A stretch of 64,000 bases of DNA from Bryoerythrophyllum caledonicum (taxonomy: Eukaryota > Streptophyta > Bryopsida > Pottiales > Pottiaceae), in assembly GCA_963971425.1 (NCBI GenBank), contig OZ020524.1:6620417-6684416 (forward strand), given 5' to 3'. Shown one piece after another: positions 19,198-52,929 of the stretch. The translations under genes were made by a program, and so were the position numbers. Below the pieces are notes generated by a model that had not been told where the DNA came from, did no database searches, and saw nothing but the letters and a program-made list of their open reading frames with translations. Position 1 is the first letter of the stretch; every line of letters begins with the position of its first letter.

Positions 19198-19782
19198 ATG
19201 GAGTGCACTCGCAAGAAATCAGGCCCTCCACATCAAACATACGAAATTCATGTATCATTCACCAACTCGGGGCACGACCGCCTCCGCTTCGCTCTTCTGG
19301 GCAGCAAGTGGTTCCCCAAGGTGCCTTTAGGAATCCTGCTATGGAGTGCACTCCATGTGCTGCTCGTTGTGGGTTATGCTTCTCTCATGCTCCTCAATTT
19401 GGGTTCGCCTTTGCTGATATCGATTGCGCTTGGAGTGACGGGGGACTGCTTCGCTGTCTCGGTTTGGGTGATGATCATTCTGATGTCTAGTCTCGTGTGG
19501 GGACCGTGTTCCTTGATTTGGCTGTTGATGAGGCTGAGCTGGGTGCGGATGCGTGGCGGAGGCGAGCGTGACTTGCAAATCAGAGTGGCGTGGAAGTGCC
19601 TTGTGGAGAACTGGAACCATCGGTTGGGTTTTCAAGGAAGTATGATTTTGGCCCAGCTTAAGGGCCCAATTACTCGGGACATTGTCAATGAGACCTTCCC
19701 GGAGGAGTCGCGCCCTGATTGGATATTGGTGGGCAGGTGGTGTGAGGAGGTTGTGCACTTGCACGACACCTTTGTCATGTAG
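19198..19782 (+). CDS. Small multi-pass membrane protein, unit copy A (hypervariable family)
   Basis: Intact 194-residue ORF starting MECTRKKSGPPHQ. A soluble N-terminal part (residues 1-43) is followed by about three hydrophobic segments (roughly 44-66, 68-86, 88-115) and a soluble C-terminal part ending CEEVVHLHDTFVM. I do not recognise the family. Two intact paralogues lie at 45762 and 52345. The first 43 codons and the last 27 or so are identical to copy B, while residues 44-120 and 133-167 differ at 32 codons, every one non-synonymous. The absence of stops or frameshifts in three copies, plus silent sites that barely change, argues for a translated protein under diversifying selection. 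The start is chosen because sequence identity among copies includes this ATG and the 5' leader. Location in the cell is inferred from hydrophobicity only. Confidence 0.6.
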   Translation: MECTRKKSGPPHQTYEIHVSFTNSGHDRLRFALLGSKWFPKVPLGILLWSALHVLLVVGYASLMLLNLGSPLLISIALGVTGDCFAVSVWVMIILMSSLVWGPCSLIWLLMRLSWVRMRGGGERDLQIRVAWKCLVENWNHRLGFQGSMILAQLKGPITRDIVNETFPEESRPDWILVGRWCEEVVHLHDTFVM

Positions 19783-20523
19783 TTGTTTGCACTTGACATT
19801 GACTTAGGTCACGGGGGACAGGAGAACATCTAGACCTTCTTCTACGTTCCATTCACAACGAGTTAGTGACAAGCAACATGTTTGAGTGAGACGAGAAGCA
19901 GGTTCTCTAGAAGTGGGTCACCTCCGAAGCTCATGTTGACCTGCAACAAGTTGATCATGTTCCAATAAACTTGATATCAATCGTAAGAGTGAATGTTTTG
20001 GGGAAATTGTTATCCATTTTCTTTAAGGGATGGGAGCACTTTGAGTAGCGAACTTGTATGATGATGGGATCGCATGTGGAGCATTTCATCCAGGGTTTTC
20101 AGATTTCCTTGCAATCTCATAGCCGGAGCTTTGTCGTTTTCATGATATTGAATTCCGAGTGGGAAAAACATCCGCGGGAAGAAGTCGGACACGAATTTCG
20201 CACAAGGGAGCGTCACGAGACTGGATTCAGATATTTAGATAACCTCTTCAGTTCAAAGTCGAAGAAATACACCTTAGTGTCTCGGAAATTAGGGGATTAC
20301 ACTAGAAATTTGGCGCTACTGATCAAGGATGCCAGGTGACGGAGCCGCTCCAACAGAAGCGGACTCCGATTCCGACGGTTAGAGGCTGCTCGGTGGCGTG
20401 TGAGAGGGGCCCCGGAGTCTCTCCCTCATTCGGCAGACGAAGATGAAGCGGGTAGACTCCTCACAGAAAAATTCATTCTTTTCTTCCCTCTCTCAATACT
20501 TATTTTGTGTATTTGCATTGCAG

Positions 20524-20591
20524 GTGTACGTGATGCTCATTGGTTTCCCAGCTTTGTACAAATTGCTAATGTTGCGTACCTTCTCATGAAG
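20524..20591 (+). other. Conserved 68-nt stretch with splice-site borders
   Basis: Preceded by TTTGCATTGCAG (acceptor-like) and followed by GTATTA (donor-like). It is identical in copy B (47085-47152) and has one change in copy C (53684-53751), although bases just outside differ. One frame reads VRDAHWFPSFVQIANVAYLL without a stop. It may be a captured or functional internal exon. The protein is not recognised. Confidence 0.35.
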
Positions 20592-20800
20592 GTATTACCA
20601 CGGTAGGATAATGCGCTGCAGTCGTAGTGCACAAGCTGCATTCCTGTTAGGTTATCAAACAGAGCATCCTCACTGATATCTTAAGATCTCAGATGTTCCG
20701 TTCAGTGGTCGGGTTATGGTGTTTTTTTTGGAAATGTGAAACGAGGTTGTAAATGGGTGTCAGCGTGCAACTCTGAGAATGGGAATCGTGCTCATGACTC

Positions 20801-21004
20801 ATGAAAATTAGAGGACTGGCACTTTTCTCTTCAGTGATGGAATTCGACTCACAACTGGCTGGTACACTAACCGAAGAAAACGAGAGATGCTTCAGCTTTC
20901 TTATGGATGCTCGTCTTGATAATAATGTCTATGTTCGGAATGGTGCATCAAGTTTTGGACTCAAGGCTTTAGACTGGACCACGATTTCCTTTGAGGATTT
21001 ATGA
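20801..21004 (+). CDS. 67-codon hypothetical ORF shared with copy C
   Basis: Encodes a 67-residue acidic peptide beginning MKIRGLALFSSVMEFD; the copy at 53961-54164 is also open with about six amino-acid changes. In copy B the corresponding first part is found inverted at about 47728-47795 and is broken. No domain, signal peptide or membrane segment is visible. It could be part of a spliced gene rather than a free ORF. Confidence 0.3.
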   Translation: MKIRGLALFSSVMEFDSQLAGTLTEENERCFSFLMDARLDNNVYVRNGASSFGLKALDWTTISFEDL

Positions 21005-21094
21005 AAACGAATGAAAATAGAACTCATCTCATTCAATAAAAAATCATTTTACCCCGACTGATATTTTATTCTAGTAGCACGTCTAGGCTGTGGA

Positions 21095-21320
21095 GTGCAC
21101 TCGCAAGATATCAGTCCCTCAACATCAAAAATATAAGATTCATGTATCATTCACCAACTCGGGCGACGCAACCTAAGAAAGCTTAGACCTTCTTCTACAT
21201 CCCGTTCTGAAGGACTTAGTGATAAGCAACATATTTGATTGAAAACATCTACTCTTACGATTGAAAGCAATTTGCGGCATCACGGCGGCCATGTTGTCGC
21301 CCGTCACAACGACCCTGGAC
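21095..21320 (+). pseudogene. Truncated second family member plus exonuclease remnant, copy A
   Basis: GTGGAGTGCACTCGCAAGATATCAG and the following bases to about 21168 match the first 25 codons of the 194-codon ORF, with ATG changed to GTG and then a deletion. The downstream 3' module follows directly. At 21282-21320 the sequence CATGTTGTCGCCCGTCACAACG matches the first bases of the exonuclease fragment in copy B and then breaks off. Copy C has the same truncated state (about 54251-54480). Confidence 0.65.
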
Positions 21321-23282
21321 TGTTTGCATCACTCTTTTGAACTTGTTCGAGCCTTTGATGCTCAGCGCTAGATTGGATTTTCGATTAAGTTCTCATGGTG
21401 AGAGTTATTTGTAGAGTCGATAAGAGACCCCTCATTTTATTCTAATACTATTCTTTCCTCACTCTCAATAGCTATCCGGTCTAAGAGAATTTGGTGGTCT
21501 CTAAACTCAAGTTACGAAGAAATAGTAACAACATGTCCTAATCATAACATGAATACAGTCAAAAATGTAAAGTCATAGATACAAAACGGATTGGTGATGG
21601 CATTGGCTGGTAGTTAGATATAGTATTAGTCGCCTTTGAGAAGGAAGATGGAGGAATTGTGGTGTATCATGAATCTTTGCCATCTTTTTTGACCGACTCA
21701 CAACATTCATGAAAATGCGACATGGTACATGAAAATGCCATAAATGATGTTGTCATAAAGGTTTTTAATGCGGACTTGAAAAGCACGTATCAATGTGCAA
21801 AATGGAGACCATAGAGGGGAGTACGTTGCACTATCCATTGGACAACTATTCACATTGTGAGCTGGAGACACCAACATGATTGATATTGATTGATACCATG
21901 TTTCTAAAAATGTCACATACAAAATTGACATTTTCACAAACACTTTGTAGTTTCCTCGAACTTTAAGCACATGGGCGATGTGGGCCAAAGCTCCATGTTG
22001 GAAACCATTTTTGAAGAGGCAAAGTATGAGAAGAAGCCACATCATCTCATGTTAGCTTAGAAGAAGATCCCATGGTTATATTCTCAAAAAAAAAATCATC
22101 ATGGAGTAAAGATTCTTCGGGTTCTTTAGGGGTTAAAGATGAGTACATGGGAGGTGGAGGGTTGAGGACCGGAGACTGGGGAGGGAAAAAAAAGAAAGTT
22201 GCTACGTTGCCCTGTTGGAGATAATGGGTTAGTACACTCATATTAAAATACATTTTATCATATTCTGTAAAGTAAAATACATGCATGGAGATACCATTTT
22301 TGACTTACTTTTAAGGATTAAGGTATGTCAAGGACTACCCTTGCCCATTGGGAACTACAAGTCAATACATAATGTGGCATATGTATTGATTGTGGGTAGG
22401 CAATTTTGAGTGAGACCGTATAAATAGTAGGCTCTACACGTAATCTCATAAAGGGGGAAATAGTTCCATACTATTAAACCTTTGTCCAGTGGGCATTGAT
22501 TTAGCGGTGGAACAAGTAGCCACTTTAATCACGCCAGCATACTTTGGAGACCGGAGTTTTATTTCTTCTTCTCTTCTTAGCTTATTGAGAGTTTTTTTTT
22601 AAAAACATGGATGGAAGTAATGGTGGCGACGAACTTGACTTTCTCAGAACGAGTGAGAGAGCCATGAACATGCAAACGTCAAAGATTGGCTGCTCCACAA
22701 TAGATGAGTTCTTGCCACAACCTATACTAATTTACATCAAACACGAAGGAATGTACACAAAATATGGGTCTCTGAGACCTCCGCATTTCTAGGTGAGGGG
22801 AGCTCCGGAAGTTAGTCTGTAGAGTATGCAGTAAGATCTTCAAGTGCCGCTGGAGCTTGAAAGAGTGTCCTGCTTAGTATATACTCTTCTGTGATATGTG
22901 TTCTAGGGTACTGATTAGTGTTCGAGAGGACGCAAACAAGTCAGATTTGAACCTTGAAGGTGCAATTTGGTGCAAAGAGAGTAGATCTAGTAAGGTAATC
23001 TGAGAGTTGGGAACCTTGACTTGTTGGAAAACTAGATCTACACTCACTAAGCCAAACCCCACCATTCTAGTTGAGATCTACTTGAGAGGGTTGTGTACAT
23101 TGCACCGTAGTCACAAAACTCCGGGAGCGACCCAAACCTAGAAACGTCTTATCAACGGAATGGAGAATTTGAGTGAGCCATTAGAATGCCACCTTAGAAA
23201 TAGTAAAGTATCAGATCTAGCAAACAGATCGCACCATACACCACACCGAGACACACAGAGAAGCAAAGACGCAACTTTAGAC

Positions 23283-26200
23283 CAGAGACTCAAGATCGCG
23301 CCACGACAGGAGATACATTCAGAGACATACACAACTCAAGGAAGCTGGACACACCACATTTTGACACTGAAGAGCAGAATCCAACGCACCTGCAGCAACA
23401 TTCACAACACTACAAGACCATCGCAGGACTCAAGATTGGATTGCAACCTTGTGGATTCACATCATCGGACCCGCATGCCCATCACCACCAACAACCAACC
23501 ATAGCTACACTCTCTACCATAACTTTTTCTTTCATGTTTTCCTTCATGATTGGAACTTTGTTTACTGCTTTACTTTTGGATCACTACAGAAACTGTGTAA
23601 ATACTAAGGCATATAAATGCATAGTAACTGTAAATGCCTCCAAAACACATGAATCTGCTGATTTGATATGGGAAAGATGCTAGAGGTTGGAAAAGCGCCG
23701 AAGGTGGTGCAGATTGACCTTCAATACAGGTGTCGCATCCCGCGCACAGAGGCAAAACATTAGGACAACACAACCAGCCGAGAAACACGCAACAACATAT
23801 GCAAGTACGAAGCTCCGAATACAGATGCACCAAAAGAAGGAGCTTGCCTTTCGACTACATCCACACGGGGACATACCTGAATGCGGCAGCAGAGGCAGCA
23901 GGGCGTGTGTCCCTGGACACAGAAGAAACCGACACCAAGAACTCCTACAGCATACAATTGGTAAGCAGAAAAAAAGTCACATAAAAAATCGGCTCTTCAC
24001 AAACCAAGACCCACAGCAATACCCGAGGAAGCAAGCAACATCGACCAGGGGACGACGACAAGAAGCAACGAACAGCACCACCACCAACAAGGTTAGTTCT
24101 CTAACCCTCCCAGACTCTCACTCATGCAATGCAATGCTATCAGGAATGATGTATGCAGAAAAGCCCACAAGAACATGAACACCAACGTCCTTCCACGAGG
24201 AAGCATTCACGCGCAAACGACCAACAAGGTAAGCTCTTTAACCCTCCCAAATTCTCACTTCTGCAAAGTAGTGTTATCAGGAAGGATTTGTGCAGAAAAA
24301 ACCAAGTCGAATCACAAGAAAATGAACCACGACGCCCACACACGGAGAAACAGCCAAGCACAAACAACCAACAAGGTAAATCCCCTATCCCTCGCAAAGT
24401 TTCACTTCCGTAATACAATATTACCGAGCAGAATATGTGCAGAAAGAGCCAAGTTCAACTGCAAAAAAAGGAACTCCAACGTCCACCCAAGAAAAAGCAG
24501 CCAAGTGCAAACGTTCAACAACGTAAGTTCCCTAATCCTCCGAGATTTTCACTTCCGCAGTGCAATATTACCAGGAAGAATATGTGCAGAAAAAGCCAAG
24601 CTGAATTACAAAGAAAGGAATTCCAGCGACTACAAACGAAGAAACAGCCTAGGACAAGAAGACAAGCACGACCTCAAAAAGCTTCGATCCAAGTGGTCCC
24701 ACTCAACGGGCAATTTTTCACAAGACGCCACACTTGTAAGATCCCAAAATTGGGGCAAATTTTCCTGGCAGCAGAGATGCCCCCCAATCTCAAGCAAAGA
24801 CACCTCACCAAACCCTAGATCGGCAGAAGAAGACGAGCGGCGCCTTGATGGCCTGCACGACCCTTTCAACTAAATCCTATGCTCGGCAGGTGAGCTTAAA
24901 CACCCTCACTACAAATGCCACCGTTCATTCTCTTCCCTCACCCCTCATTATCTAGATCCCCAGTGTTGTTATGGTCATGTTCGAGTTGAGCGCCTAGAGG
25001 GAGAGAGTTCCTATGTAAGTAAGCAAGTAGATGCGTACCTTAGCCGGCCATGGGCCACATTGAGCGGAAGTTGTCGACGCCGCACCTTATTGCCCTGCGC
25101 CACAATATCGAGGAGCTGCTCCTTGACTTCACAGCGACAAAATCGAGCCTTCCTGTGCTACATCGAGCCACCTAGTATCAGCCCCTAGACGCGCCACGAG
25201 GGCCCCACACCTCACTGCCCTACATCGACATTAGGAGAAGCCCCTGGACAGGACATCGCCGCCAATTGTGCAAGACAGCACGCCCAAGGCCCATTTGTGC
25301 GAATCCACCAAGCCCCCGTGTGAAGCTAAAGTGGAGAGGAGGGTGGAATTGTAGCAAATCCACACGCTACAACCCTCGAGCGGAGCGACAATATAGAAGG
25401 AGGAGGGCTTGGGAAGAGGAGCTACCCAGAGGTTTGCACGGAGCAGAGCCGCAGCACAAAGTCCAGTGGACCTGCGGAGAGAAGCCACGGAGAAACACAA
25501 GGAGGAATCGAGGAGCGGAGCTGTAGGACAGGGCCAAGCGGTCCCACGGAGCAGAGCCGCAGCCCAGCGAAGGAGAGTACCGTGGAGCAAGACTGCCGTA
25601 CGCAGGTAAGTGGTTCGGACGCGAGCACTGTGTATGTGCTTGGAAGAAAGTGGACGAGGAAGCGCGAGACCAGGCCAGGCTTGATCACTCGAGGACTTCG
25701 TTTGAAAACTACAAACGGCGGAAGCTTGCGCTGGAGCGTTGGAGGATAGAAGACAAGCTCTGGAGACGGTGTACGAGAAGCAACAGTAGCAGTGTGAGAA
25801 CCCAAATCCGTACATAAGCACTGGGAGATTCATTGCGAGAATTGGTGGTCTCAATACGACTACGGGAGGTCTGTATGCGAGCAAAGGGAGCACTTAGGGT
25901 ATGCTCGCAACGATTGGAGGTCTAGTGGAAACTACAGGAGGCCTGAGTGCCAGCAATGGACACTGAAAAAGAATAGACATCAGAAGATGTCACAAGGTAA
26001 TTTAGCTAACTACCTGAAGGCACGAGTTGAAGCCATACAACCGGGTCAAAACTTTTTCTCACTCCCCCCACTATTTGTTAGTCTCTATCATCATTGGGTT
26101 TATTTTGCAAACCCATGGACATTCGCACAACTCTTATATAAATATCCATTTACTTAGGGAGGTGACCTCTTTTCAGGCACCTCCCATGTGTGTGTATGTG

Positions 26201-32794: not shown

Positions 32795-32929
32795 GGTGGT
32801 TATGGCTCTTGCTTATCTCACCGGGGCTCCCTGCCCTTGTCCTCGTCTCGTCCTTACTGTTGGTCACCGTGATTCTGGTGCTCGTCTTGGTTTCTTCGTC
32901 TTTGTGCTCTCGGACCTCCAGTGAGCTCG

Positions 32930-33860
32930 GACCTGCTCCTCGTGTGAGTTCGGACCTACACCTGGTGTGAGCTCGGACCTACACCTCGTCCCTTGCTGGT
33001 CCTCGTGATGTTGGTCTTCGTGCTCGTCTTGCTGGTCACTGTACCCGTCTTGCTAGTCGCCGTGCTCTTCGTCTTCGTGCTCTTGGACCTCCAGTGAGCT
33101 CAGACCTGCTGCTCGTGTGAGCTCGGACCTACACCTGGTGTGAGCTCGGACCTACTGTGAGCTCAGATCTACTGTGAGCTCGGCCCTGCACCTCGTGTGA
33201 GCTCGGACCTACACCTCGTCCCTTGTTGGTCCTCGTGATGTTGGTCTTCGTGCTCGTCTTGCTGGTCACCGTGCTCGTCTTGTTGGTCACCGTACTCTTC
33301 GTCTTCGTGCTCTCGGACTTCTAGTGAGCTCGGACCTGCTGCTCGTGTGAGTTCGGACCTACACCTCGTCCCTTGCTGGTCCTCGTGATGTTGGTCTTCG
33401 TGTTCGTCTTGCTGGTCACCGTGCTCTTCGTCTTCGTGCTCTCGGACCTCCAATGAGCTCGGACCTGCTGCTCGTGTGAGCTCGGACCTGCTGCTCGTGT
33501 GAGCTCGGACCTACACCTCGTCCCTTGCTGGTCCTCGTGATGTTGGTCTTCGTGCTCGTCCTCGTGTCTTCGTGCTCGTCCTGGTGTCTTTGTGCTCGTC
33601 TTGCTGGTCACCGTGCTCCTCCTGCAAGGCACCGTGCTCTTCGTCTTCGTGCTCTCGGACCTCCAGTGAGCTCGGACCTACACCTCGTGTGAGCTCGGAC
33701 CTACACCTCGTCCCTTGTTGGTCCTTGTGATGTTGGTCTTCGTGCTCGTCCTGGTGTCTTCCTGCTCGTCTTGCTGGTCACTGTGCTCCTCCTGCAAGGC
33801 ACCGTGCTCTTCGTCTTCGTGCTCTCGGACCTCCAGTGAGCTCGGATCTGTTGCTCGGAT
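32930..33860 (-). repeat. Coding-type minisatellite: His/Glu/Asp/Gln-rich peptide repeat
   Basis: A unit of roughly 110-160 bp containing TCGTGATGTTGGTCTTCGTG, CTCTTCGTCTTCGTGCTC and TGAGCTCGGACCT recurs about six times with internal deletions. On the minus strand it reads as peptides of the type REHEDEEHGDQQDEHEDQHH followed by GTRCRSELTR, and long frames (for example 33169-33453, 33678-34079) stay open through it. It lies inside the element nested in the LINE, upstream of the 651-codon frame. Confidence 0.75.
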
Positions 33861-34040: not shown

Positions 34041-34254
34041 GTAAGGCCCCTCCGAACTCTCGATCCACCCGTTTAACAAAGGTGTTAGGATCCGGTGTTA
34101 AACCACCACTTATTCCCTTTAGCACCTCCCTAGGGTCCTATTCCTTTCCCATCCTAATTCTCCCTAAGAGCCATTACTAGGTGTCTACTTCTCTCTAAGC
34201 TTAATAAGGAGGTACGGTGATACACTTCCTAAGTAACTAATTAGAAAATTTTTG

Positions 34255-35798
34255 AAATTTGGGGTACGACATCTACCAAGTCTACAAAATCTAATAACTC
34301 AACTCCAGACCCCTCCAGCACTCATCCACATTCAAGAAACCAAATTAACCGCCAAAAAATCAACAAAATATATACAAAACCTCTTCCCTCAATACAAGCT
34401 AATTTTTAACAATTCACATACACTTACTAGATGCATACGACAAAGAATGCCACATACACCAGCTAGAGGTGGTTTATTAACACTCATACACAATAAATAT
34501 GCTTACCCGGGTAACATCACCAAAATTCCTACACCGGCCAACATATCCCCATACCTACAAATAATAAAAATTAACAACCAACCATTACAACCATGGTTAA
34601 ACATACATATATACATGCCTTCCCATCCACAAGACTTACATCTAATCCCTATCATACAACAAAATATCTCTGACCATATCTCAGCATACCCAAACCACAC
34701 TTACATCCTCTGCGGAGACTTTAACTGAGACATTGCCCTTATCGGAAGACATAACTATAATAACATAACCCCACCACAACTAGAAGACATACAATGGCAT
34801 GACTTTACTGACAACATCAACATGACATATATACTGACCAACACACCATTCTCTCGACAAGGAGGCTACAACTACACAAGCACCAGCCTAATCGATGGTT
34901 TTTACATTAACTCACCAAATAACAATAGATATACATCCACAACCACCACTGAAATGATCCTAAACTCGGACCACTTCCCCATACACCTCCACATCCCACA
35001 AAACACTTTACTAGCTAGACCCGTTACACCCCCACAAGTTACACAAATCGGCGTCCTTAATCCCATTCCCCAAGAAAACCTAGAAAAATTTAACATTAAA
35101 TTCTTCGAAGAAAACTCCCTCGAACTAGATAACCTAACTACTACTCTAAGAACAACTAACCACTTCAACCCAGCACAATGGCAAGACAAATGCACAAAAT
35201 TAGACAAACTTATACAAAAAATCTCTAATACCCTTGAAGAAACATGCAAAGCCAAACCCCTGCCTACATTGACAAATAGAACCGCACAACAAGGAGGATT
35301 TCTACCACGAAAATTATCTAAACCCTGGAAAAAACATCTTGAAACTTACCATCTCATCTGGAAAGCCATATATATTGCCAAAACCCGACCAAATTGGCTC
35401 TTACATCCAATCATAAATGAAATCCGCAATCACCAAAACACTCAAATACCAGCCCCACCACCTCCTAACCACTCAAACGATGAATGGATCAACCAAATAC
35501 CTGACATTGCCAAAAATGCAAATAAACAAGCCCGGGATATCACAACAAAACACACCATGGAAAACATTCAAAAAGCCATCTCAAAATATAGAAAACTATA
35601 TGAAACAAGCCCCATGAAAATAAATAGGAAAGTCTTCAAAAATAGTGAAAATGCACCCCTGGACTGTATTTTAGACAGGAGTAACAACAAACTCACTAGC
35701 CCAGAAGATATAGCTAACGAAATCCATACTCAACAATCAACAAGCAATAGACCTACAGTTCCGACATGTTACTATCAACCCCATCATATACCCCAATG
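34255..35798 (+). pseudogene. LINE ORF2, APE-type endonuclease and linker
   Basis: Continues the endonuclease after the 4.8-kb insertion: RHLPSLQNLI, ALIHIQETKL (catalytic Glu of the APE fold), ARGGLLTLIH, YILCGDFN (catalytic Asp and Asn), and LNSDHFPIHLHI (the terminal SDH motif). One in-frame TGA at 34726-34728 follows GDFN. The downstream linker runs to HHIPQC, where the solo-LTR-like element interrupts it at 35799-35803. The endonuclease would nick target DNA to prime reverse transcription. Confidence 0.82.
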
Positions 35799-35803
35799 CA
35801 CGT

Positions 35804-37508: not shown

Positions 37509-37512
37509 ACGT

Positions 37513-38640
37513 GTGGTGTTAGTCATTATCCATGGCATGACCTTGATGGATTCACAATTAATATAAGAGGAGAACCACAAACTCCAATACACACATATGT
37601 AGACCAAGAAACTTATGATATGTGCCTTAAAAACCTTGGAAATAACAAAGCCCCTGGCCTAGACAAAATCCCTAACTCAATTCTAAAAAATATGCCACCA
37701 AGATTCCACAACATGTTATTTTTATTCTTTAAACATTGTTACAAACAAAACCAAATACCTGCATAATGGAAAACGAGTCTCACAGTATTGCTATATAAAA
37801 AAGGTGACCCTTCCCAACTAACTAATCATAGACCTATTGCCCCGGCAAACACAATATACAAACTATTTACAAGCACCTTAACATCTATCCTCTCATCATA
37901 TGGTGAAAAACACCAAATACTATATGACAGCCAAGAAGGTTTTAGAGCTGAAAGAGGGACATCAAGACAACTACAAACACTTATAGTTGCACTAGAAGAT
38001 GCAAAACTCATGAATCAGGACATTTATATACTATATATTGACTTCAAAAATGCCTTTGGATCTATTGATCATGCTAGTCTGTTAGCAATAATGAAAGATC
38101 TAGGTTATCCAATGGATGTCATTGCACTAATAGGAAACATATACTCACAATCTACCACCACATTCACTGGAGAACGTTTTGGAAAAACCAGGCCCATCCC
38201 CATTCAAAGGGGCACCATCCAAGGTGACACACTTAGCCCCTACCTATTTATCATCTTTTTAGAACCGCTCTTAAGATGGTTGCAACAAGGTGACAAATGA
38301 TACATATTTGGTACATCTAAAACAAAAATCTCATCAGCAGCATATGCGGATGATTTAGCCGCAATTGTCAATAAACTAAAATCACATCAAACACAACTAA
38401 ACAAACTAGACAAATTCTGTGAATGGGCAGGGATGGACCTAGGAATATCTAAATGCGCAATTACTGGATGCCCAAATAAATCCAAAATGAATCCATTGAC
38501 ATTCAAAGCTCAAATACAAGCCACTAACATCAACTATAGGAATCAACCAATACCAGTATTACATCAAAACGAATCATACACATACCTTGGTATAAACTTA
38601 GTTCCATCCTTGAAATGGAAAATACAAATACAAACCACTA
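37513..38640 (+). pseudogene. LINE ORF2, reverse transcriptase fingers and palm
   Basis: After the solo-LTR-like insert the frame resumes with PWHDLDGF, then RT motif 0 NKAPGLDKIPNS, motif 1-2 LLYKKGDPSQLTNHRPIA, motif A YIDFKNAFGSID, motif B RGTIQGDTLSPYLF, the catalytic AYADDLAAIV (about 38340-38370) and SYTYLGINL. In-frame stops are TAA near 37764 and TGA 38298-38300. All the active-site Asp residues (one in motif A, two in YADD) are present. The region ends at QTTT, where the TA-flanked MITE inserts. Confidence 0.9.
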
Positions 38641-38873
38641 CCCTACGCTATGGTCAGTTTCGTACATAATTAATTCAAAATGGGGACTTGTCCAAAATTT
38701 TGGAAATTTCAAGAGATTTGGCTAGACGATACCTATCTAATACCAAGGTGACACCCGAGCAAGATCTAGGAAATACTCGTGCAATACCTATGTGATATCC
38801 ATTGTATCGAATCAATGTAACCAAAAACAAAAAGCTTCGGCACTTGCCTGCCGAAACTGACCGTAGCGTACGG
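38641..38873. mobile_element. 233-bp MITE with TA target duplication (Tc1/mariner-like)
   Basis: Left end CCCTACGCTATGGTCAGTTT and the reverse complement of the right end CCGTACGCTACGGTCAGTTT form a 22-bp terminal inverted repeat with two mismatches. TA dinucleotides flank it at 38639-38640 and 38874-38875. Removing the element and one TA rejoins the LINE reverse transcriptase in frame. There is no coding capacity. The TA duplication and CC-starting ends fit the Tc1/mariner superfamily. Confidence 0.85.
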
Positions 38874-38875
38874 TA

Positions 38876-40990
38876 CCACCAAAGTTATAAAACAATGTAA
38901 AGAACTAGCAGCCTGTCCAACAACAATCAAACAAAAAATTAACATGGCGGACACAGTTATAAGAGCAGGTATCGCATACAGCTTTTATGCACTACCATAC
39001 TCCTTCCTTGCCATCAAAAAGCTCGACAAAAAGATAATAGCCCTCCACAAAACAATATGTGGCCTCACTAAAAGTACCTCAAACATAGCTACCCAACTAC
39101 CCCATGACTTATTTGGCATAGGAGCCTTCTCATTAAAAAATGCCTATCTTAGATGTATTGGAGAACAACTTCAAAATGCCCTTAATGACACCGGAAGACT
39201 AGGAAAAATTTACACCGGTTTACTACAATTCATATTAGCTAAATCTAGAGGGTCCAAAGACATCCCATGTATTAAATATCACCACTGTGTTCGATCGCCT
39301 ATCACAAGAACACTATTCCTACTAAAGAAAGAAGCTGGTGTACATCTAAAAAGTACAATAGGAAATTTCTTGTTAGACACCCCACCACTTGAAAATGTAT
39401 GGATGAAAAAACCTGGAAACATTCCCCGACTTGACCCTAAAACATCTCTTAAACTACTACAAAAATTACTACTACACAATATAATAGACATCAAACAAAT
39501 CATACCACCTAATGGATATAACATGATGAGCTCATATGACTTCAAAAATTACCAGTCTACACCCACCAAACTAATAAACAGCACACTACACATTACTGAA
39601 CAACTATTTTGTCACCCAAAATGTACACCGGGATGCCAAATACCATGCCCATACCACCAACCACCGAGAACCTTAAAAGACAACTACATCATCAAAAACC
39701 ACATCATACAACCTAGACAAATCGAACCACCAACCCACCTCGCCACCCAAAAATATTCTCAAAGATCCCCAATAATTTCCTATGAATGTAATATTGGATC
39801 ATAAAAAACGACACTATATAGACTCTAACGGTATAGTAAAAAATGACACATCATATCTATGCCAATGGAGATTACCAAATCATACCACATACAATAAATG
39901 GCAGCCTCATAGAGAACTATTCCCTTGGAATGACCCTAACACTTGTAACCATCATACCGAACTCCTGAACCAACATTACACCAAAACACAACACCGACAC
40001 CTCTCAAACTCAATAAAAGCATACTTTTCCACTCACCAACAAAGAGACACAAGATTTGTTACACCTGCATTAAACATTCCACTTACCCACATATCCATTA
40101 ATGAATGTAACCCCGAATGCGACATAGAAACAAATGTAAACACCATACAAATACAACATGATGTGTCCCACATATATGAAGACAATGGCAGACACCTTAT
40201 CACCATTCCAAAAAAAAAGACTCCACTGGCTATGGAACCAATATCATAAAGCAAAAAACAATCCACACGGACTAGAACCACCTACACAACCATTTGAAAC
40301 TGAAATTGTCTGGTTATATCAAAGATACAAATACCGAATCCCCAAAAATGATCCATTAAAACTTACGCAATACACACTATCAACACCAATATTAGATTAT
40401 CTGACATCAACATTTAATATTAACCACTCATACTTCTTATCACCAATTACATGCCCCACACAACTCGCCCAGTTTTCCTCACCATTCCCATGGGATGTAA
40501 TATTTGGGTCTCTTGGTAAACCTTTGAACACAAATGGAAGGGCATTGGATATGCCCATTCACATAACGAAACAGACACACAACAAGCTATACATTGGGCC
40601 CGATTAGCTGCCAAGCATAATCCAAATAATGTCACAATATTAATCTCTCCTGACACCAATTGGTACCAAAAGCTTAACCCCCACATTGGCCCCTTTCTAG
40701 ATACACACATCATAGCACAGTTTGCCGCGGATACCATCACACATGACGAACCTACAGTGCCTCCAGAACTTAACTTGCCACGAAAAGAACTCTCAACACT
40801 ACGAATTATATGTATACATCATCAAAATAACAACATTGGAACTTATGAACAACTAAACCAACTTACATACATAGCCAATAACCTCTCGATACAACAAATA
40901 CATACACAGATTGCCACAGTTACCCCCCCTAACTGCACTATTAACTACAACAAGAAATGGTCTAAACTCACCTACCCCAATACTCCTACA
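38876..40990 (+). pseudogene. LINE ORF2, thumb and connection region
   Basis: Continues as TKVIKQCKELAACPTTIKQ, then IRAGIAYSFYALPYS, LHKTICGLTKST and LPHDLFGIGAFSLKNAYLRC, typical of the part after the LINE reverse transcriptase palm. The frame is open to about 39804, then shifts near 39790 and again near 40170-40240, with further breaks near 40600 and 40757. A short PWDVIFGSLG-type stretch near 40490 leads to the region before RNase H. Confidence 0.75.
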
Positions 40991-41043
40991 CACAATAATA
41001 CACCCAACCCCAATTCCCAAACTACCACACTAACCTCCCATTA

Positions 41044-42525
41044 AAATTCTTCCCAAAATTCAGTTGTTACACCGATGGCTCGTTCAAAAAACCCAAAGAA
41101 ACAAGCCCTGGAATATGGAGAAGAGAGAGAGCGGGGTATGGCATTTATAGCCCAAAGGGACTTAATATTGCCAAAAGGTTACATGGCCATCAAAATTTCC
41201 TATGAGCAGAGATGATAGCGATACACAAAACTTTGAGAATCATCAACACCCAATACCCAAATGAACCGGCACATATATTCACAGATAGTCTAAACGTTCT
41301 TTATCTACTAAACACACAAATAAAACATCCTACACTACATATTAGTCACCCAGACCAAATCACACTTGCCTCTATGGTGCAATTACTCCAAAGTCGCACA
41401 CAACTAATCACATTACATAAGGTAAGAGCCCATGTCAATATTGATGGAAACGAACAAGTCGATAAACTAGCAAAAGATGGTATTCACCTTGCACACAGAA
41501 ACGCCACACACCCATACGAACACGCCCATGCTACCCCATATTATTATCAAAAAGACGATTGGCCTTCCATGTTTGACACACCAGACAAAGGCCCGGTTCG
41601 GTTTATGGAAAAACAAATCACTAAACATGACAAAAAATACAACCTCGAAACCATGGGCAGACAAAGTGCTAATATCTGTAAATGGACAAGTAATACAGTT
41701 ATTGACAATGAACTCTCTAATGAATTCTGGAACAACCCCACCATATCAGATAAACAGAAAACGTCCCTCATTAAACTCCGCAGTGGATCATATATGAGCC
41801 AGGCCCGAAAACAACTCTGTTTTGGTAGAGAAAGATATCCCTCCATCACTTGCCCCATTTGCAACTCATTAGATCCAGATACATGGCTACACGTACTACT
41901 CACTTGTGGACAACAGCACATACACTCACTTTGTGTTAAAAGGCACAATAGAGCAGTATGGGAAATTAGGAAATTATTAGTCTCCTCCGAAAAATCCAAA
42001 TGCTATATTCTCATGAATGCAGGCACTTTCAACAACAATCCTCAAGAAAATACTATCCCTAACTGGTTACTACCTTGTACATGTAGTACCCATAGATGCC
42101 AGTGTAACCCCAGATTCAGACGTGATATACTTTGTGTCAAAGGTTTACCCTACCAAAATGACCCCCTTGAAAATGTCGAACAAAATCTCACCGTACGATT
42201 TATTGAATTCACGTATTGTAATGAAAGATTCTCCCTGGAAACTTCAGAAGCAAAAATCAACTAATACAGACCACTAACCGAAAATATTGCTGATAGAGGC
42301 TGGAAAATTGACCCTCTTATTGTCATCACAGCTAGTGCTAGAGGAAATACGCACATCCCATCAATGAAATTGATTGAAGACAAATTTAAAATACCCGAAA
42401 CCACCATCCAGAATACCTTCAAAAACATCAACACCATTGCTATACAATATACTGTGCACATCCTCCTCCACAAAAGAAAAATAAAAAATCATCAACCCTT
42501 GCCTCAATTACAAGATCCACCCTAA
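41044..42525 (+). pseudogene. LINE ORF2, RNase H and C-terminal zinc motif
   Basis: RNase H signatures in order: YTDGSF (about 41070), AEMIAIHKT (Glu), IFTDSLNVLYLL, and HVNIDGNEQVDKLAK. An in-frame TGA lies just before AEM at 41205. The C-terminal part has CPICNSLDPDTWLHVLLTC, a C-x2-C-x9-H-x4-C zinc motif like those at the end of many LINE ORF2 proteins. A TAA at 42262-42264 breaks the last about 85 codons, which otherwise run to 42525. RNase H would remove the RNA template during second-strand synthesis. Confidence 0.85.
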
Positions 42526-45246: not shown

Positions 45247-45761
45247 TTAAACAAATCACGAATTGTGTACCACGAATTGTAGAAGTCATAGCAGAAGAGG
45301 GAAGAGACGTTACAAATCTATAAAACTGGGTTTGAGGTTCGATGGTGGCTCTCTTTTAAGCTAAAATAAAATTCAAATTCTTTACTACCTCATTGGAGGG
45401 ATATCAAACTTACTATCTCATTGAACTAGAGCGATCTCAGATGAGTCGTCACTACCGACATAATCCAGCGAATTAATTAATGTCAAAACATAAACCTTAC
45501 CTCCATTGTTCCGTGCAATAATCTGGCCGAGTGAATCATCTTCAGAGCAAAGCCAAGAGTTTTGTTTTCTGCCTCGCCGAAGTGCCATAGAACATTCGAG
45601 AATATTCTACACTTTGTCGGCAAGCAACTGACGGAGTCATCGAAGACCCAGATGCACGCTGACGTAGAACCTGAAAGGCTCAAGTTCTAAAAAACACAGG
45701 CAGTCTGAGAAAGCAGAGAGAGCAAGTTCAGTGGCACTCGAGGTGTAGACAGAATTCTAGA

Positions 45762-46346
45762 ATGGAGTGCACTCGCAAGAAATCAGGCCCTCCACATCAA
45801 ACATACGAAATTCATGTATCATTCACCAACTCGGGGCACGACCGCCTCCGCTTCGCTCTTCTGGGCAGCAAGTGGTTCCCCAAGGTGCCTTCAGGAATCC
45901 TGCTATGGAGTGCACTCCATGTGCTGCTCGTTGTGGGTTATACTTCTCTCAGGCTCCTCATTTTGGGTTTGACTTCGGTGCTATCGATTGCGGCTGCAGT
46001 GATGCTGGACTGCTTCGCTCTCTCGGTTTTCGTGATGATCTTTCTGATGTATAGTCTCGTGTGGGGACCGTGTTCCTTGACTTGGCTGTTGCTGAGGCTG
46101 AGCTGGGTGCTGATGCTTGGCGGAGGCGAGCGTGACTTGCAAATCAGAGTGGCGTGGAAGTGCTTTGTGGAGAACTGGAACCATCGGTTGGGTTTTCAAG
46201 GAAGTATGATTTTGGCCCACTTTACTGGCCAAATTACTCGGAGCCTCGTCTGTGAGGGCATCCCGGAGGAGCCGCGCCCTGATTGGATATTGGTGGGCAG
46301 GTGGTGTGAGGAGGTTGTGCACTTGCACGACACCTTTGTCATGTAG
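45762..46346 (+). CDS. Small multi-pass membrane protein, unit copy B (hypervariable family)
   Basis: Intact 194-residue ORF. Its first 43 codons are identical to copies A and C at every base, and so are the final codons from RPDWILVGRWCEEVV onward. Between them it differs from copy A at 32 codons: 21 in the hydrophobic middle (residues about 44-120) and 11 in a second stretch (about 133-168). All are amino-acid changes. By codon position the base changes split about 17 first, 19 second and 4 third, the reverse of a gene under purifying selection. Several codons changed at two bases. The hydrophobic character of the middle is kept. No family is recognised; role unknown. Confidence 0.6.
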   Translation: MECTRKKSGPPHQTYEIHVSFTNSGHDRLRFALLGSKWFPKVPSGILLWSALHVLLVVGYTSLRLLILGLTSVLSIAAAVMLDCFALSVFVMIFLMYSLVWGPCSLTWLLLRLSWVLMLGGGERDLQIRVAWKCFVENWNHRLGFQGSMILAHFTGQITRSLVCEGIPEEPRPDWILVGRWCEEVVHLHDTFVM

Positions 46347-47084
46347 TTGTTTGCACTTGACATTGACTTAGGTCACGGGGGACAGGAGAACATCTAGACC
46401 TTCTTCTACGTTCCATTCATAACGAGTTAGTGACAAGCAACATGTTCGAGTGAGACGAGAAGCAGCTTCGCTAGAAGTGGGTCGAATCCGAAGCTCATGT
46501 TGACCTGCAACAAGTTGATCATGTTCCAATAAACTTGATATCAATCGTAAGAGTGAATGTTTTGGGGAAATTGTTATCCATTTTCTTTAAGGGATGGGAG
46601 CACTTTGAGTAGCGAACTTGTATGATGATGGGATCGCATGTGGAGCATTTCATCCAGGGTTTCAGATTTCCTTGCAATCTCATAGCCGGAGCGTTGTCGT
46701 TTTCATGATATTGAATTCCGAGTGGGAAAAACATCCGCGGGAAGAAGTCGGACACGAATTTCGCTCAAGGGAGCGTCACGAGACTGGATTCAGATATTTA
46801 GATAACCTCTTCAGTTCAAAGTCGAAGAAATACACCTTAGTGTCTCGGAAATTAGGGGATTACACTAGAAATTTGGCGCTACTGATCAAGGATGCCAGGT
46901 GACGGAGCCGCTCCCACAGAGGCGGACTTCGACTCCGACGGCTAGAGGCTGCTCGGGGGCGTGTGAGAGGGGCCCCGGAGTCTCCATCATTCGGTAGAAG
47001 AAGATGAAGCGGGTAGGCTCCTCACAGAGCAATTCATTCTTTTCTTCCCTCTCTCAATACTTATTTTGTGTATTTGCATTGCAG

Positions 47085-47152
47085 GTGTACGTGATGCTCA
47101 TTGGTTTCCCAGCTTTGTACAAATTGCTAATGTTGCGTACCTTCTCATGAAG
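47085..47152 (+). other. Conserved 68-nt stretch with splice-site borders, copy B
   Basis: Same sequence as 20524-20591, preceded by TTTGCATTGCAG and followed by GTTTCACC. See the copy A entry for the possible reading. Confidence 0.35.
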
Positions 47153-47367
47153 GTTTCACCACAGTAGGATAACGCGCTGCAGTCGCAGTGCGCAAGCTGC
47201 ATTCTTATTAGGTAATTATCAAACAGAGTATCCTCACTGATATCTTAAGATCTCAGATGTTCCGTTCAGTGGTCGGGTCATGGTGTTTTTTTTCGGAAGT
47301 GTGAAACAAGGTTGTAAATGGGTGTCAGCGTGCAACTCTGAGAATGGGAATCGTGCTCATGACTCTG

Positions 47368-47880: not shown

Positions 47881-48647
47881 GTGGAGTGCACTCTACAAGG
47901 AACCCTGTCGTTTTTCATTCAAAAATGTCGCTCTTCACTCACTGAAAATGTGGAAAAGCTTTTTTCTTTTTTCTTTCCTGTGTGACCCAACTGACTCACC
48001 CGGTCAGAAAATCCTCAAAATTGCAAATGAAAATCGACAGGGTTTGTTGTAGTGGCACTCGCAAGATATCAGTCCCTCGACATTAAAAATATAAGATTCA
48101 TGTATCATTCACCAACTCGGGCGTTGCAACAGTAGCTTCAAGGCACGAGCGCCTCCGCTTCGCCCTTTTAGCGAGCAAGTGGTTCCCCAAGTTGCCTTTA
48201 AGAATTTTCCTGTGGAGCTCCATGTGCTGCTCGTCATGGGTGGCGCTTCTCTCATGCTCTTGCTTTTGGTGACCAAGATTGCCCTTGGACTTGCATTATA
48301 CTGCTCTGTGGTCTCCTTTTTCGGGGTGGTCAGTCTACTATCTTTTCTCGTGTTTGCGTCGTGTTCCTTGATTTGGTTGTTGATGAAGGTGAGCTGGGCG
48401 GTGATGCTTTGCAACGGTGACCGCGACCAGCAAATCAGACTGGCGTGGAAGGGCTTTGAGGAGTGGCGGAATTGATGGTGGTGGGATTTCCCAGTCCTAA
48501 GTGAGTTGAAGGCCGCGCTTGAGGGCAGGTTAACTCGGGAATTTGGCAATTGTTGTTACCTGGACGATGTGTTGCGGCCTGGTTGGAGATTGGTGGGCAG
48601 GTGGTGTGAGGAGGTTGTGCACTTGCACGACACCATTGTTGTATAAT
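47881..48647 (+). pseudogene. Second member of the 194-codon family, full length but broken (copy B)
   Basis: GTGGAGTGCACT matches the first four codons of the intact ORF with ATG changed to GTG; a MITE (47893-48052) interrupts right after, and CGCAAGATATCAG resumes the sequence. Downstream the frame shifts near 48130-48230, then reads HVLLVMGGASLMLLLLVTK and LASCSL-like hydrophobic segments and QQIRLAWKGFEEW, meets a TGA at 48473, and ends RWCEEVVHLHDTIVV before TAA at about 48645. It is more diverged from the three intact ORFs than they are from each other. Copies A and C retain only its first about 25 codons. Confidence 0.72.
47893..48052. mobile_element. 160-bp MITE inserted in the second family member
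   Basis: Left end CTACAAGGAACCCTGTCG and right end (opposite strand) CTACAACAAACCCTGTCG form an 18-bp inverted repeat with two mismatches. It is flanked by TGCACT and TGGCACT. The same site in copies A (near 21107) and C (near 54265) is uninterrupted (GTGCACTCGCAAG). It is closely related to the pieces inside each R1 block. Superfamily uncertain. Confidence 0.75.
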
Positions 48648-48829: not shown

Positions 48830-49110
48830 GCCATGTTGTCGCCCGTCACGACGACCCTGGCGCAAGTCCAGGCGCATATCCTTGCTCTGGTGCACGCGAA
48901 CAAGATCCTCGTGGGCCACTCCCTGGCGCCGCTCAAGCTGGTGCATGCGCACGTCATCGACATCTTGGTGCTATACCAGAGGCGCCACAAGCTCGCGCTC
49001 CGGGCGTTCACCTCCCTGCACCTGCAGCGCTCGATCCAGGGCGACGACCACGGCCACGACATCGTCGAGGACGCGCGCACCGCCATGGACCTCTTGAAAA
49101 TTCCGCAACG
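48830..49110 (+). pseudogene. Captured fragment of a DEDDh 3'-5' exonuclease gene (REXO/SDN-like)
   Basis: A GC-rich stretch within AT-rich DNA encodes LSPVTTTLAQVQAHILALV, then ILVGHSLAPLKLVHAHVID, then LQRSIQGDDHGHDIVEDARTA followed by MDLLKI. This matches the C-terminal half of the exonuclease domain of plant small-RNA-degrading nucleases and REXO-type enzymes, which trim RNA 3' ends. The Exo II motif has lost the residues after GHSL, including its catalytic Asp; the Exo III His and Asp (GHDIVED) remain. The N-terminal half with the first DxE motif is missing, so it cannot be active. Copies A and C keep only about 40 bp of its start. It appears to be a host gene piece carried inside the repeat unit. 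Confidence 0.75.
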
Positions 49111-49565
49111 GTCAGGACTTTCCCGCATTTGTGATAATTCTAGTGTGAATTTTTGCGCTTCTGACCTTGTTATCTATTTGAAACTCCCTGATTTTAGGAT
49201 CGGAATGCCACATGAGGACCAAAAATGGGTCTAAAACAATAGAATATTTAATGTACACCATTCTTCCAATACCGAAGTTGTTCTCACTAGCAAACCCTGA
49301 AGAAATGGTACCGGATACCGCAATGTGCAGCAACCCAAACTCTTTTGAAGCCTCCATAGCAAGATAATCCCGGACCCTATCAAAGTCTACAACCAAGGCG
49401 CATCACTACTAGACAACACACCACCGATCTCCTTGTCTCAATAACAAGCACGACCAATATGAAAACTATGTTGAAAACTAGGTAGCAAACATGCAACAAA
49501 GGTCCAAGACTATAGCCATGAGGGGTCTAACAACCTTTCAAAAGTCTGGTACTTACTATTTGCAC
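49111..49565. other. Unique stretch between units B and C; nothing recognised
   Basis: Moderately AT-rich with no long frame, repeat or RNA gene that I can support. It contains no match that I could see to other parts of the window. Confidence 0.4.
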
Positions 49566-49584
49566 CCATAGAATGTCAATGACA

Positions 49585-50001
49585 TTAATATTTGTCAATG
49601 GTCTCTGGCCAATGGTAAATTCTCCAACATAGAATAGGACACATAAACTTATATCCACACCCAGTATAAAAACCTTTTTGCTTAACACAACAAAATCCAC
49701 ATACTCTACAAAGTCGCTTCCAGTTCACTGTCGATTGTCCGCCAACAATCAAGCCCAATCGCCAAGGTCCAAAACTTCTCCACATATGTTGACACTGTTG
49801 GGGGGACATCTTTGCTGCCATCTTGTTGTATATAAGTAACTGTCTCCCCCTCATGATGTGGAAATTGGTCTTTCGTTCCCTAGATACATTGTACATGCAC
49901 CTGGTCAATGTGGTCTTTGACAACATCTTCGTCATGAGCAATAGCCGGTGGTCCATAGACCATATCTTATAGCTCGTGGTGATGTTTAACAAGTTGATCA
50001 T
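49585..50001 (-). pseudogene. piggyBac-like transposase C-terminal relic, copy C
   Basis: A 138-codon frame on the minus strand. Its C-terminal part CRVCGFCCVKQKGFYTGCGY then KFMCPILCWRIYHW shares the Cys/His spacing and the FMC-x3-C-x4-H ending of the piggyBac relic at 12723 (CGDIFMCNSPCYWDNH). Upstream are FHIMRGRQLLIYNKMAAKM and HMWRSFGPWRLGLIVGG. No catalytic region remains. Confidence 0.6.
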
Positions 50002-50881
50002 GTTCCCATAAACTTGAATTCAACCATAAGACTTGGTGTTTTGGGGGAATTTGTATGATAATGGGATTGCATATGAAGCTATTTGTGATGTACTTGACAT
50101 TTGCTACCAATTGATTCATGCTATGAATTTTGGACTAAACCCTGTAAGTCCAATCGACCATGCATATGTCGATACAGGAAAAAACCTTTGTAGAAAGCGC
50201 TACAGGCCACCTCAAAGGAAAAAGTTGACCATGACTTAGAGGTGGAGGGAGATGGGCATCTTTTGAGACCATTGCCACCTCAATCGCTACAAGCATCGAC
50301 GAGCTACAGTGATTTCCGTAAAACAAGCTTGTCGATTTTTGTTGTGAAATGTAACCATTGCATACATGTCATTCTGCATGATCTAGAACACTTGTAGATC
50401 CTCACAGGCCAAAAAAGCTCATCGGCCTTAAAGGGTTAGTATCCCAATTGAACCCTACTAATCTTACCTCCAATTTCTCTATAGAAATCCAGTATAGAGA
50501 TTAGATATAATTCAAAGTTTTTACTTTACTTGTTACTATCGTGAGGGTGCACATTGATTGATGAGAATTGCAAAACATGCACTCCACCCTACTGCAACAC
50601 TTACTATTTGAAGAATATCATAAGTTGGTGAGTGAGTCGGGTCATAAAAAACAAGAAAAAGCACCCTTTTCAACATTTTATGTAAGTGAAGGGCGACACT
50701 TTTTGAGTGAGGAGTGATAGGGTTGCTTGTAGTGCCATAGCCAAAATATTACCAATGTCTCAGTCCCTTATTGGACACATAAAGCTGGTTTAGTAGCAAC
50801 ATTTGTCAACAGGTACTTACGGATAGAATTCATCCCAATCATATCTTTATTGGGAATAAGTGTGTCATTCAAGCCGACGTA

Positions 50882-51037
50882 CTACAAGGGACCCTATTGT
50901 TTTTCATTCCAAAGTGTCGCTCTTCACTCATTGAAAATGTGGAAAAACGCTTTCTTTTAGTCCTTGGTGATCCAACTGACTCACGTGCTGATAAAACCCT
51001 CAAAATAGCAAATGAAAATCGACAAGGTTTGTTGTAG
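50882..51037. mobile_element. CTACAA-ended MITE-like piece inside R1 copy C
   Basis: Left end CTACAAGGGACCC and right end AGGTTTGTTGTAG; homologous to 6944-7096 and 47893-48052. No coding capacity. Confidence 0.5.
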
Positions 51038-52344
51038 TGAGGTACTTATGCATACTCAATTGTTCCACCAATTTATGACTTAGCCCCTCTACATCACTCT
51101 CACGTGCTACAAACGCTTGCCCTTACAAATTATCAACACCCAATTAAATCCATTAGCAACCAAATCAAGGGCACAAACGAGTAGAACCACCATCGAATGC
51201 CCTAGTTAGTAAACCATGACACAGTACAACGCCACAGTAAACACGAGCCAAATGGGGATTTGCCTAAATACCCCGGTCGAGCGTTGCATCAAGCCTCAGG
51301 CTTGGAAGGGTAAGGGAGGGTAGGGACAAAACCGGCCCCTATTTTTATGTTGGAGGGGGTTTCTATTTGATCAAAGGGAGGGCTACCGAGGGAAATTTGT
51401 GGCTGCAGGCTCCAAATTTGACAAAACAAATTCCCCAAAAAAAAAAAAAAAAAAAAGCCTCTAGAGCCCCGAAAGCTAAAAGACCTTCGTGTAGATTTAT
51501 GAAACCGAGCAGATGCCCGAATGAACCTCAATCCAACTCAAAGCCTTACACTCCGTGAATTAATCCTTACATTCATGTTGTTGATTTGGTCTTGTAAAAT
51601 TGATGCAAATGGGATACTTTAACAAATCACGAATTGTGTATCACGAATTGTAGAAGTCAGCAGAAGAGGGAAGAGACGTTACAAATCTGTAAAACTGGGT
51701 TTGAGGTTTGATGGTGGCTCTCTTTCCAAGTTAAAATAAGATGTACCTTTGTTTGGTAGTAGAGCCTTGTGGATGCCCAAAGTTCTATGGTTTCTAAACC
51801 AACTCTCATGCATCATGCTGTGATTTTGACCAGAACGTGAAAGGCACAAGTTCAAATATCAGGCCGTTGGAGAAAAGCAGAGCACCTCAAGACCAGAAAA
51901 GAGCAAGTTAAGTGGCAAACTTTAGAGCAATTATCAGTTGCAAGTATGATATTTACTACCTCATTGCAGGGAGATCAAACTTAGTATCTCATTGAACTAG
52001 AGCGATCTCAGATGAGTCGTCACTACCGACATAATATAGCGAATTAATTAATGTCAAAACATAAACCTTACCTCCATTGTTCCGTGCAATAATCTGGCCG
52101 TGTGAATCATCTTCAGAGCAAAGCCAAGAGTTTTGTTTTCTGCCTCGCCGAACTAGCTTCGACGAAGTACCATAACATTCGAGAATATTCTACACTTTGT
52201 CGGCAAGCAATTGACGGAGTCATCGAAGACCCAGATGCACGTCGACGTAGAACCGGAAAGGCTCAAGTTCTAAAAAACACAGGCAGTCTGAGAAAGCAGA
52301 GAGAGCAAGCTCAGTGGCACTCGAGGTGTAGACAGAATTCTAGA

Positions 52345-52929
52345 ATGGAGTGCACTCGCAAGAAATCAGGCCCTCCACATCAAACATACGAAATTCATGT
52401 ATCATTCACCAACTCGGGGCACGACCGCCTCCGCTTCGCTCTTCTGGGCAGCAAGTGGTTCCCCAAGGTGCCTTTAGGAATCCTGCTATGGAGTGCACTC
52501 CATGTGCTGCTCGTTGTCGGTTATGCTTCTCTCATGCTCCTCATTTTGGGTTTGCCTTTGGTGATATTCATTGCGCTTGGAGTGGCGGGGGACTGCTTTG
52601 CTGTCTCGGTTTTGGTGATGGCCATTCTGATATCTAATCTCGTGTGGGGACCGTGTACCTTGATTTGGCTGTTGATGAGGCTGAGCTGGGTGCTGATGCT
52701 TGGCGGAGGCGAGCGTGACTTGCAAATCAGAGTGGCGTGGAAGTGCTTTGTGGAGAACTGGAACTATCGGTTGGGTTTTCAAGGAAGTATGGTTTTGGTC
52801 CAGCTTAAGGGCCAAATTACTCGGGACCTTGTCGATGAGAACTTCCCGGAGGAGTCGCGCCCTGATTGGATATTGGTGGGCAGGTGGTGTGAGGAGGTTG
52901 TGCACTTGCACGACACCTTTGTCATATAG
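52345..52929 (+). CDS. Small multi-pass membrane protein, unit copy C (hypervariable family)
   Basis: Intact 194-residue ORF. Compared with copy A it shows about 21 to 22 amino-acid-changing codons and only two silent ones (a GTG/GTC and a TTC/TTT); against copy B about 34 changing and three silent. The invariant ends and the two variable stretches fall at the same places as in copies A and B. The frame is also open upstream to 52102, but that extension is frameshifted in the other copies, so I start at the shared ATG at 52345. Hydrophobic segments and C-terminal RWCEEVVHLHDTF are kept. Function unknown. Confidence 0.6.
   Translation: MECTRKKSGPPHQTYEIHVSFTNSGHDRLRFALLGSKWFPKVPLGILLWSALHVLLVVGYASLMLLILGLPLVIFIALGVAGDCFAVSVLVMAILISNLVWGPCTLIWLLMRLSWVLMLGGGERDLQIRVAWKCFVENWNYRLGFQGSMVLVQLKGQITRDLVDENFPEESRPDWILVGRWCEEVVHLHDTFVI

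Follow-up and report, generated by a model that had tools for sequence, protein, structure and literature searches.

Diversifying selection and core exchange in a tandem-amplified family of small hydrophobic moss proteins

The window analyzed here, 64,000 nucleotides of the moss Bryoerythrophyllum caledonicum (contig OZ020524.1; C12:6620417-6684416 in a 437 Mb (437.36 Mb) assembly of 894 contigs), contains three copies of a gene for a small hydrophobic protein: A (19198-19782, intronless), B (45762-46346) and C (52345-52929), all on the plus strand and each an intact open reading frame (ORF) of 194 codons plus stop. We consider it nearly certain that they belong to a tandem-amplified plant family with constant ends and a hypervariable core, and that the copies of their cluster, cluster 1, have been shaped by diversifying selection together with exchange of core segments.

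Diversifying selection on the cluster-1 core

When the three copies were recomputed to the base, codons 1-43 were the same at every position, as an initial annotation of this DNA had claimed, and its counts of differences were reproduced. A and B differ at 40 bases, distributed 17:19:4 over the three codon positions, in 32 codons of which none is silent, and A and C differ at 25 bases in 23 codons, two of them silent. The comparison of B with C gave 45 differences in 36 codons, three of them silent. In copy A (plus strand), the constant N-terminal part (codons 1-43; 19198-19326) is followed by the hydrophobic variable stretch V1 (codons 44-120; 19327-19557), a second variable stretch V2 (codons 133-168; 19594-19701) and a constant C-terminal part (codons 169-194 plus stop; 19702-19782) that ends in CEEVVHLHDTFVM.

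In the six full-length cluster-1 copies (A-F), 79 sites vary; they fall in 59 codons, and 3 of these codons vary only silently. Copy F is near-identical to A, and the region-omega, site-model, core/flank and reading-frame tests were run on the five distinct copies, A-E. In their 400-base flanks, which provide a neutral yardstick, 68 of 776 columns (8.8%) were variable, with phases of 23:23:22, whereas variable sites in the two core stretches fell 28:31:14 on codon positions 1, 2 and 3. Positions 1 and 2 of the core were variable at 26% of sites and position 3 at 12%, and 2 of the first 129 coding bases varied. Thus, core positions 1 and 2 vary about three times as much as neutral DNA, position 3 about equally, and the ends less. 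The excess at positions 1 and 2 over the flank (Fisher, 1.2e-10) means that, in cluster 1, to which this comparison applies, change exceeded the neutral rate itself, beyond what a comparison with silent sites gives.

Pairwise counts agreed with this picture. Pooled by the Nei-Gojobori method (NG86), which re-uses copies so that the counts are not independent, the proportions of silent (pS) and non-silent (pN) differences were 0.029 and 0.116 in V1 and 0.036 and 0.120 in V2, and other parts of the gene gave pS of 0 and pN of 0.011-0.020. Maximum likelihood on the five copies, with the limits of V1 and V2 taken from the initial annotation, gave a non-silent to silent rate ratio (omega) of 9.0 for V1 and 10.4 for V2; twice the log-likelihood difference (2dlnL) from omega = 1 was 41.7 and 37.2, respectively. 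Site models, which involve no choice of region, favored M2a over M1a with 2dlnL of 73.3, 71.8 and 77.7 on three of the 15 topologies; all 15 were covered briefly in the region test. On a star tree the value was 85.3, which matters because recombination makes every single tree wrong. The codon models were custom Python code, not PAML, and F, G, p4384, p4429, p4442, p4491, p4522 and p4665 stood outside all likelihood tests.

Counts of codon states pointed the same way. Among 40 codons with a single variable site, 3 were silent (binomial, 0.002 at the expected 27%), and for core codons alone the count was 3 of 34 (binomial, 0.009 at 27%). Another 19 codons have two or more variable sites, and the omega estimates could be inflated by multi-base mutation.

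A process without selection, in which a mobile or duplicated ORF decays under relaxed constraint, could be suggested by the many truncated family members, by the chemically random-looking changes in V1 and by certain pairs from a second cluster with pN close to pS. However, relaxation predicts a ratio of 1 and the even codon phase seen in the flanks, not ratios of 9-10. It also fails to predict that the 70 derived core amino-acid states include no stop, against 3.7 expected, and that the six ORFs have no gap interval, against 10 and 6 in the 400-base flanks. Omega, the M2a result, codon phase relative to the flank and the absence of stops and indels together rule out neutral decay for cluster 1, and we regard relaxation as a very improbable account of the pattern.

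The chance that coding in another frame or on the antisense strand caused the pattern is practically negligible. Antisense ORFs of 141 and 156 codons do lie over A and C; over A, open frames occur on the minus strand at 19632-19799 and 19339-19764. Nevertheless, between 3 and 13 stops per copy interrupt the five other frames, none of the antisense frames stays open across the whole gene in any of the five copies, and, of six frames tested, frame +0 was the only one free of stops in all five, with pN/pS of 3.55 compared with 0.58-1.92 in the others. Stops and frame-wise pN/pS thus rule out such coding in cluster 1.

The site tests were extended to a second cluster, cluster 2, where the M2a gain was 18.8 for the trio p4426/p4437/p4474 (p4474, which has lost start and stop, being used from codon 5) and 11.8 for the trio p4440/p4519/p4622. 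A class with omega above 1 was favored in cluster 1 and in these two trios, and the strong diversifying selection proposed from three copies was upheld in the larger within-genome sample, comprising the six cluster-1 copies, of which the five distinct ones entered the tests, and two of the three sets from cluster 2. Diversifying selection on the cluster-1 core is well supported.

Between subgroups, 11 comparisons made without p4384 and p4522 gave core pN of 0.32-0.42 and pS of 0.29-0.47, a distance at which any excess in the core is masked. For the segment labelled TM1, the same 11 comparisons gave pS of 0.15-0.52 and pN of 0.03-0.12, and TM1 is under purifying selection between subgroups. In pairwise counts, the p4522 core was compared only as far as its frameshift.

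Exchange between copies and the extent of the family

From +81 to +655, a span of 575 bases, copies A and F show no difference, and many differences lie just outside it; the two N-terminal differences of F are common to E. Therefore, a core has been copied between units. Violations of the four-gamete rule were found in 119 of 2278 biallelic pairs in cluster 1. In cluster 2, 150-base bins of the ORF show 16-37% difference between p4426 and p4515, but the DNA from +750 to +2700 shows only about 3%. The members p4515 and p4663 are near-identical from -3000 to -750; from there through the first coding bin they differ by 2-5%, and in the following two bins by 7-8%. These profiles show that genes and flanks differ in history. 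Core segments are exchanged by ectopic recombination or gene conversion, and the constant ends may serve as homology anchors. The local diversification mechanism offered by the initial annotation as an alternative to selection thus holds in the form of core segments swapped between copies; a mutation-generating process is not needed.

The duplicating unit that had been proposed to carry the gene is real, with about 4 kb common to A, C, E and F and about 2 kb shared with B. In the window (plus strand), the units around A (18551-22713) and C (51704-55871) are 95.7% identical to each other, and the unit around B (45378-47365) is 94.3% identical to that of A. An orphan N-terminal family fragment lies downstream of A (21090-21170) and a similar one downstream of C (54250-54345), both on the plus strand. 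A broken family member at 48057-48640 (plus strand) is in two pieces (C12:6668473-6668643 and 6668631-6669056) with one internal TAA and one TGA. Stops and frameshifts are thus absent from the six full-length cluster-1 copies but present in other members, among them this one.

A six-frame protein search of the species' own 437 Mb genome with copy A found at least 42 places at E<=0.001; the query L007 likewise found at least 42, and the distant member p4384 at least 31 at E<=0.1. These are lower bounds, in which certain genes score as two places. Most places lie in two clusters on C12, at 6.60-6.77 Mb (cluster 1) and 4.38-4.67 Mb (cluster 2), and additional ones at C12:19.57 Mb and on contigs C3, C4, C14 and C774. 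Fourteen members are full-length and open (180-198 residues: A-F, G, p4426, p4437, p4442, p4515, p4663, p4665 and p4384), three are shorter, with 126 residues (p4440, p4519 and p4622, the last starting with TTG), and the remainder have been disrupted by stops or frameshifts or have lost an end.

No Pfam match at E<=1 was found for 9 of the 10 family proteins scanned, and the tenth matched MIB_HERC2 at 0.17, which is below the cut-off and at chance level. Copy A, the one query used, had no match among PDB sequences. Pattern searches gave 25 matches in IMG/VR viral contigs and 27 in bacterial and archaeal genome contigs, of which none was confirmed as a relative. The titles and abstract openings covered by our literature search described no such moss family.

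Every full-length member is a single open frame. The first 43 residues of A are basic and hardly vary across cluster 1; hydropathy marks residues from about 39 to 111 as hydrophobic, and a short conserved piece (121-132), the variable residues 133-168 and the constant tail follow. All 12 members scanned have 19-residue windows above 1.6 that start at residues 39-48 and extend to 86-125, which suggests small hydrophobic proteins that may cross the membrane several times. Among 13 aligned members, invariant columns are confined to positions 1-65 and 175-193, apart from L95, L106, E123 and I128 between them. The N-terminal motif, resembling RLRFALxASxWxPRPLGxLLW, is recognizable in the distant members on C3, C14, C774 and at C12:4.38 Mb, and so is the C-terminal motif, except in the C3 member; the tails of p4384 and of the C14 and C774 members resemble CEExxxxHD. 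Conservation of the tail in DNA beyond the protein was considered as well; this signal is weak and is not relied on (Fisher, 0.017 with 7 sequences, 0.24 with 8 and 0.23 with 18).

Other sequences in and around the clusters

The sequence at the start codon of A, ATGGAGTGCACTC (19198-19210), reappears in the membrane stretch inside a 16-base palindrome, ATGGAGTGCACTCCAT (19341-19356). Inspection of the ORF list by eye revealed a LINE-like (long interspersed nuclear element-like) ORF series between A and B (34252-42264, plus strand) and a Copia-like polyprotein as two long ORFs near C (58352-62716, minus strand). The stretch 32893-33711 is densely filled with nested tandem repeats, whose units measure 15-23 and 150-230 bases, and a 249-codon ORF (24124-24873) spans a 147-base tandem repeat present in three copies at 24211-24649.

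Four cluster-2 units share a downstream block (L033:7561-9300, L034:8501-9945, L036:6881-8525 and L040:6951-8680) with 97% identity. It has long open frames on both strands and looks like a captured gene fragment; no Pfam match was found in the three pieces tested.

In the same assembly, two plastid contigs carry full psaA/psaB-type genes (C894:44676-49041 and C821:55046-59411) whose PsaB proteins differ at several residues. The same PDB chains are closest to both; the C894 protein scored 1666 bits with each of 7ksq, 6l35 and 8htu, which we take to be chains from the moss Physcomitrium patens (next scores, 1633 and 1599; not identical). The two PsaB forms might be explained by DNA of a second plant in the material sampled, or by an old copy. 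A further match, at C572:355-2466, has 39 stops.

Possible roles and comparable systems

The reading we favor, with our confidence evenly balanced between acceptance and doubt, is that this is a variable membrane recognition or conflict protein. Under this proposal, the basic first 43 residues and the CEEVVHLHDTFV tail at the C terminus would couple all copies to common cellular machinery, and the membrane-embedded core with its adjoining loop would contact an ever-changing partner. The partner might be a molecule from a microbe, might take part in mating or self-recognition, or might be the counterpart of a selfish element. A plant would then hold many specificities at once, and duplication, point changes and swaps of cores would renew this repertoire. 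A more specific version, tentative and on the doubtful side, is that the haploid moss keeps a repertoire of hypervariable membrane receptors or killers whose specificity lies in the spanning core and whose near-identical coupling ends are homology anchors for cassette-like core swaps.

Several results weigh against the combined account of core diversification and a recognition or conflict role. For the cluster-2 pair p4515/p4663 the M2a gain was 3.7, which is not significant, with core counts of 1 change at 72 silent sites and 25 at 249 non-silent sites. Little or no non-silent excess was seen in the core of p4426/p4474 (pS 0.05, pN 0.05), p4426/p4437 (0.10, 0.12) and p4440/p4622 (0.03, 0.02). 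In cluster 1, the constant ends, which hold few changes, gave omega of 0.58 and 1.61, not distinguishable from 1 (2dlnL of 0.5 each). Charged residues made up 6 of 46 derived states in V1, against 7.5 expected at random, which is odd for packed helices; as charged changes are near the random level, the hydrophobicity of V1 is not visibly protected. In V2, none of the 24 derived states was charged, where 5.2 were expected, and the shift went towards hydrophobic residues. The character of change in V1 and V2 speaks against simple, tightly packed helices. Structure prediction from three window proteins gave a mean pLDDT (predicted local distance difference test) of 43.7, so that the topology is drawn from hydropathy. 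Finally, a crude screen for secreted Cys-rich ORFs in 184 kb of cluster 1 and eight 10-kb cluster-2 stretches, which misses genes with introns, found no ligand or partner: it yielded seven candidates, and the two with at least three matches were a repeat-rich ORF and a piece of the family itself.

A role in immunity, with the protein evolving against microbes or herbivores in an arms race comparable to that of RPW8 or NLR clusters, is possible though on the unlikely side. Plant resistance clusters (RPW8/HR and NLR) are tandem, undergo birth and death and experience diversifying selection on part of the protein, and the moss family likewise combines a tandem array, decayed copies and exchange with an omega that greatly exceeds 1 for part of the protein. 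However, no NB-ARC, LRR, RPW8 or kinase domain was recognized in the Pfam scan described above, and the Pfam profiles of RPW8, NLR and DUF247 proteins are unmatched in the ten proteins scanned.

A determinant of gamete or self/non-self recognition, like PrpS of Papaver, the SE proteins of Ipomoea or DUF247 of grasses, we think improbable. Excerpts from PMC13033167 describe the atypical receptors of self-incompatibility (PrpS, SE1, SE2, SEA and DUF247) as highly polymorphic and lacking known receptor domains, PrpS as small, hydrophobic and multi-pass, with no homologues outside Papaveraceae, the SE proteins as having four predicted spans, and PrpS and SE as lineage-specific. The moss proteins resemble this description in being small, hydrophobic, extremely diverse and without known relatives, and the 194-residue cluster-1 copies have several predicted spans, as expected of a PrpS-type protein of about 20 kDa. 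In contrast to those receptors, which are allelic at a self-incompatibility locus with a linked secreted ligand, they are many paralogues with constant ends around a variable core, in dozens of copies in one genome; the crude ORF screen found no linked secreted ligand.

A killer meiotic driver or poison-antidote family resembling wtf of Schizosaccharomyces pombe, in which the variable parts would set the match between antidote and poison, also seems quite unlikely to us. Its likeness lies in many copies, hydrophobic products, no relatives found, decayed copies, non-allelic exchange and the retroelement-like ORFs noted nearby by eye. According to excerpts from PMC6526906, wtf genes encode predicted transmembrane proteins, number more than 20 copies per genome, undergo non-allelic gene conversion and are often flanked by transposons (Tf elements); unlike the single open frame of the moss genes, they mostly have five or six exons, and the drivers produce alternate transcripts. 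The wtf antidote requires an extra N-terminal exon, whereas an unspliced in-frame extension is not conserved here, because an in-frame stop lies one codon 5' of the start in 8 of 20 loci (L007, L008, L009, L014, L015, L017, L018 and L020). The open frame of copy C does extend upstream (listed from GTG at 52102), with a lesser extension in other cluster-1 copies. The atypical self-incompatibility receptors are nearest in style and the wtf drivers nearest in genome behavior; we place the family in neither.

Tandem, hypervariable and diversifying families are already known as a kind, and what looks new is that a short single-frame gene combines constant ends with a variable membrane core in a bryophyte host. 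To our knowledge, hardly any comparable genes for self/non-self recognition, mating or conflict are known from bryophytes. If the proposed recognition or conflict role is true, the hypervariable part would lie within or beside membrane helices rather than in a classical ectodomain. Omega of about 9-10 in defined stretches, read against a neutral flank yardstick, offers a direct entry to bryophyte recognition and conflict genes, and mosses make tissue expression, segregation in crosses and core swaps feasible.

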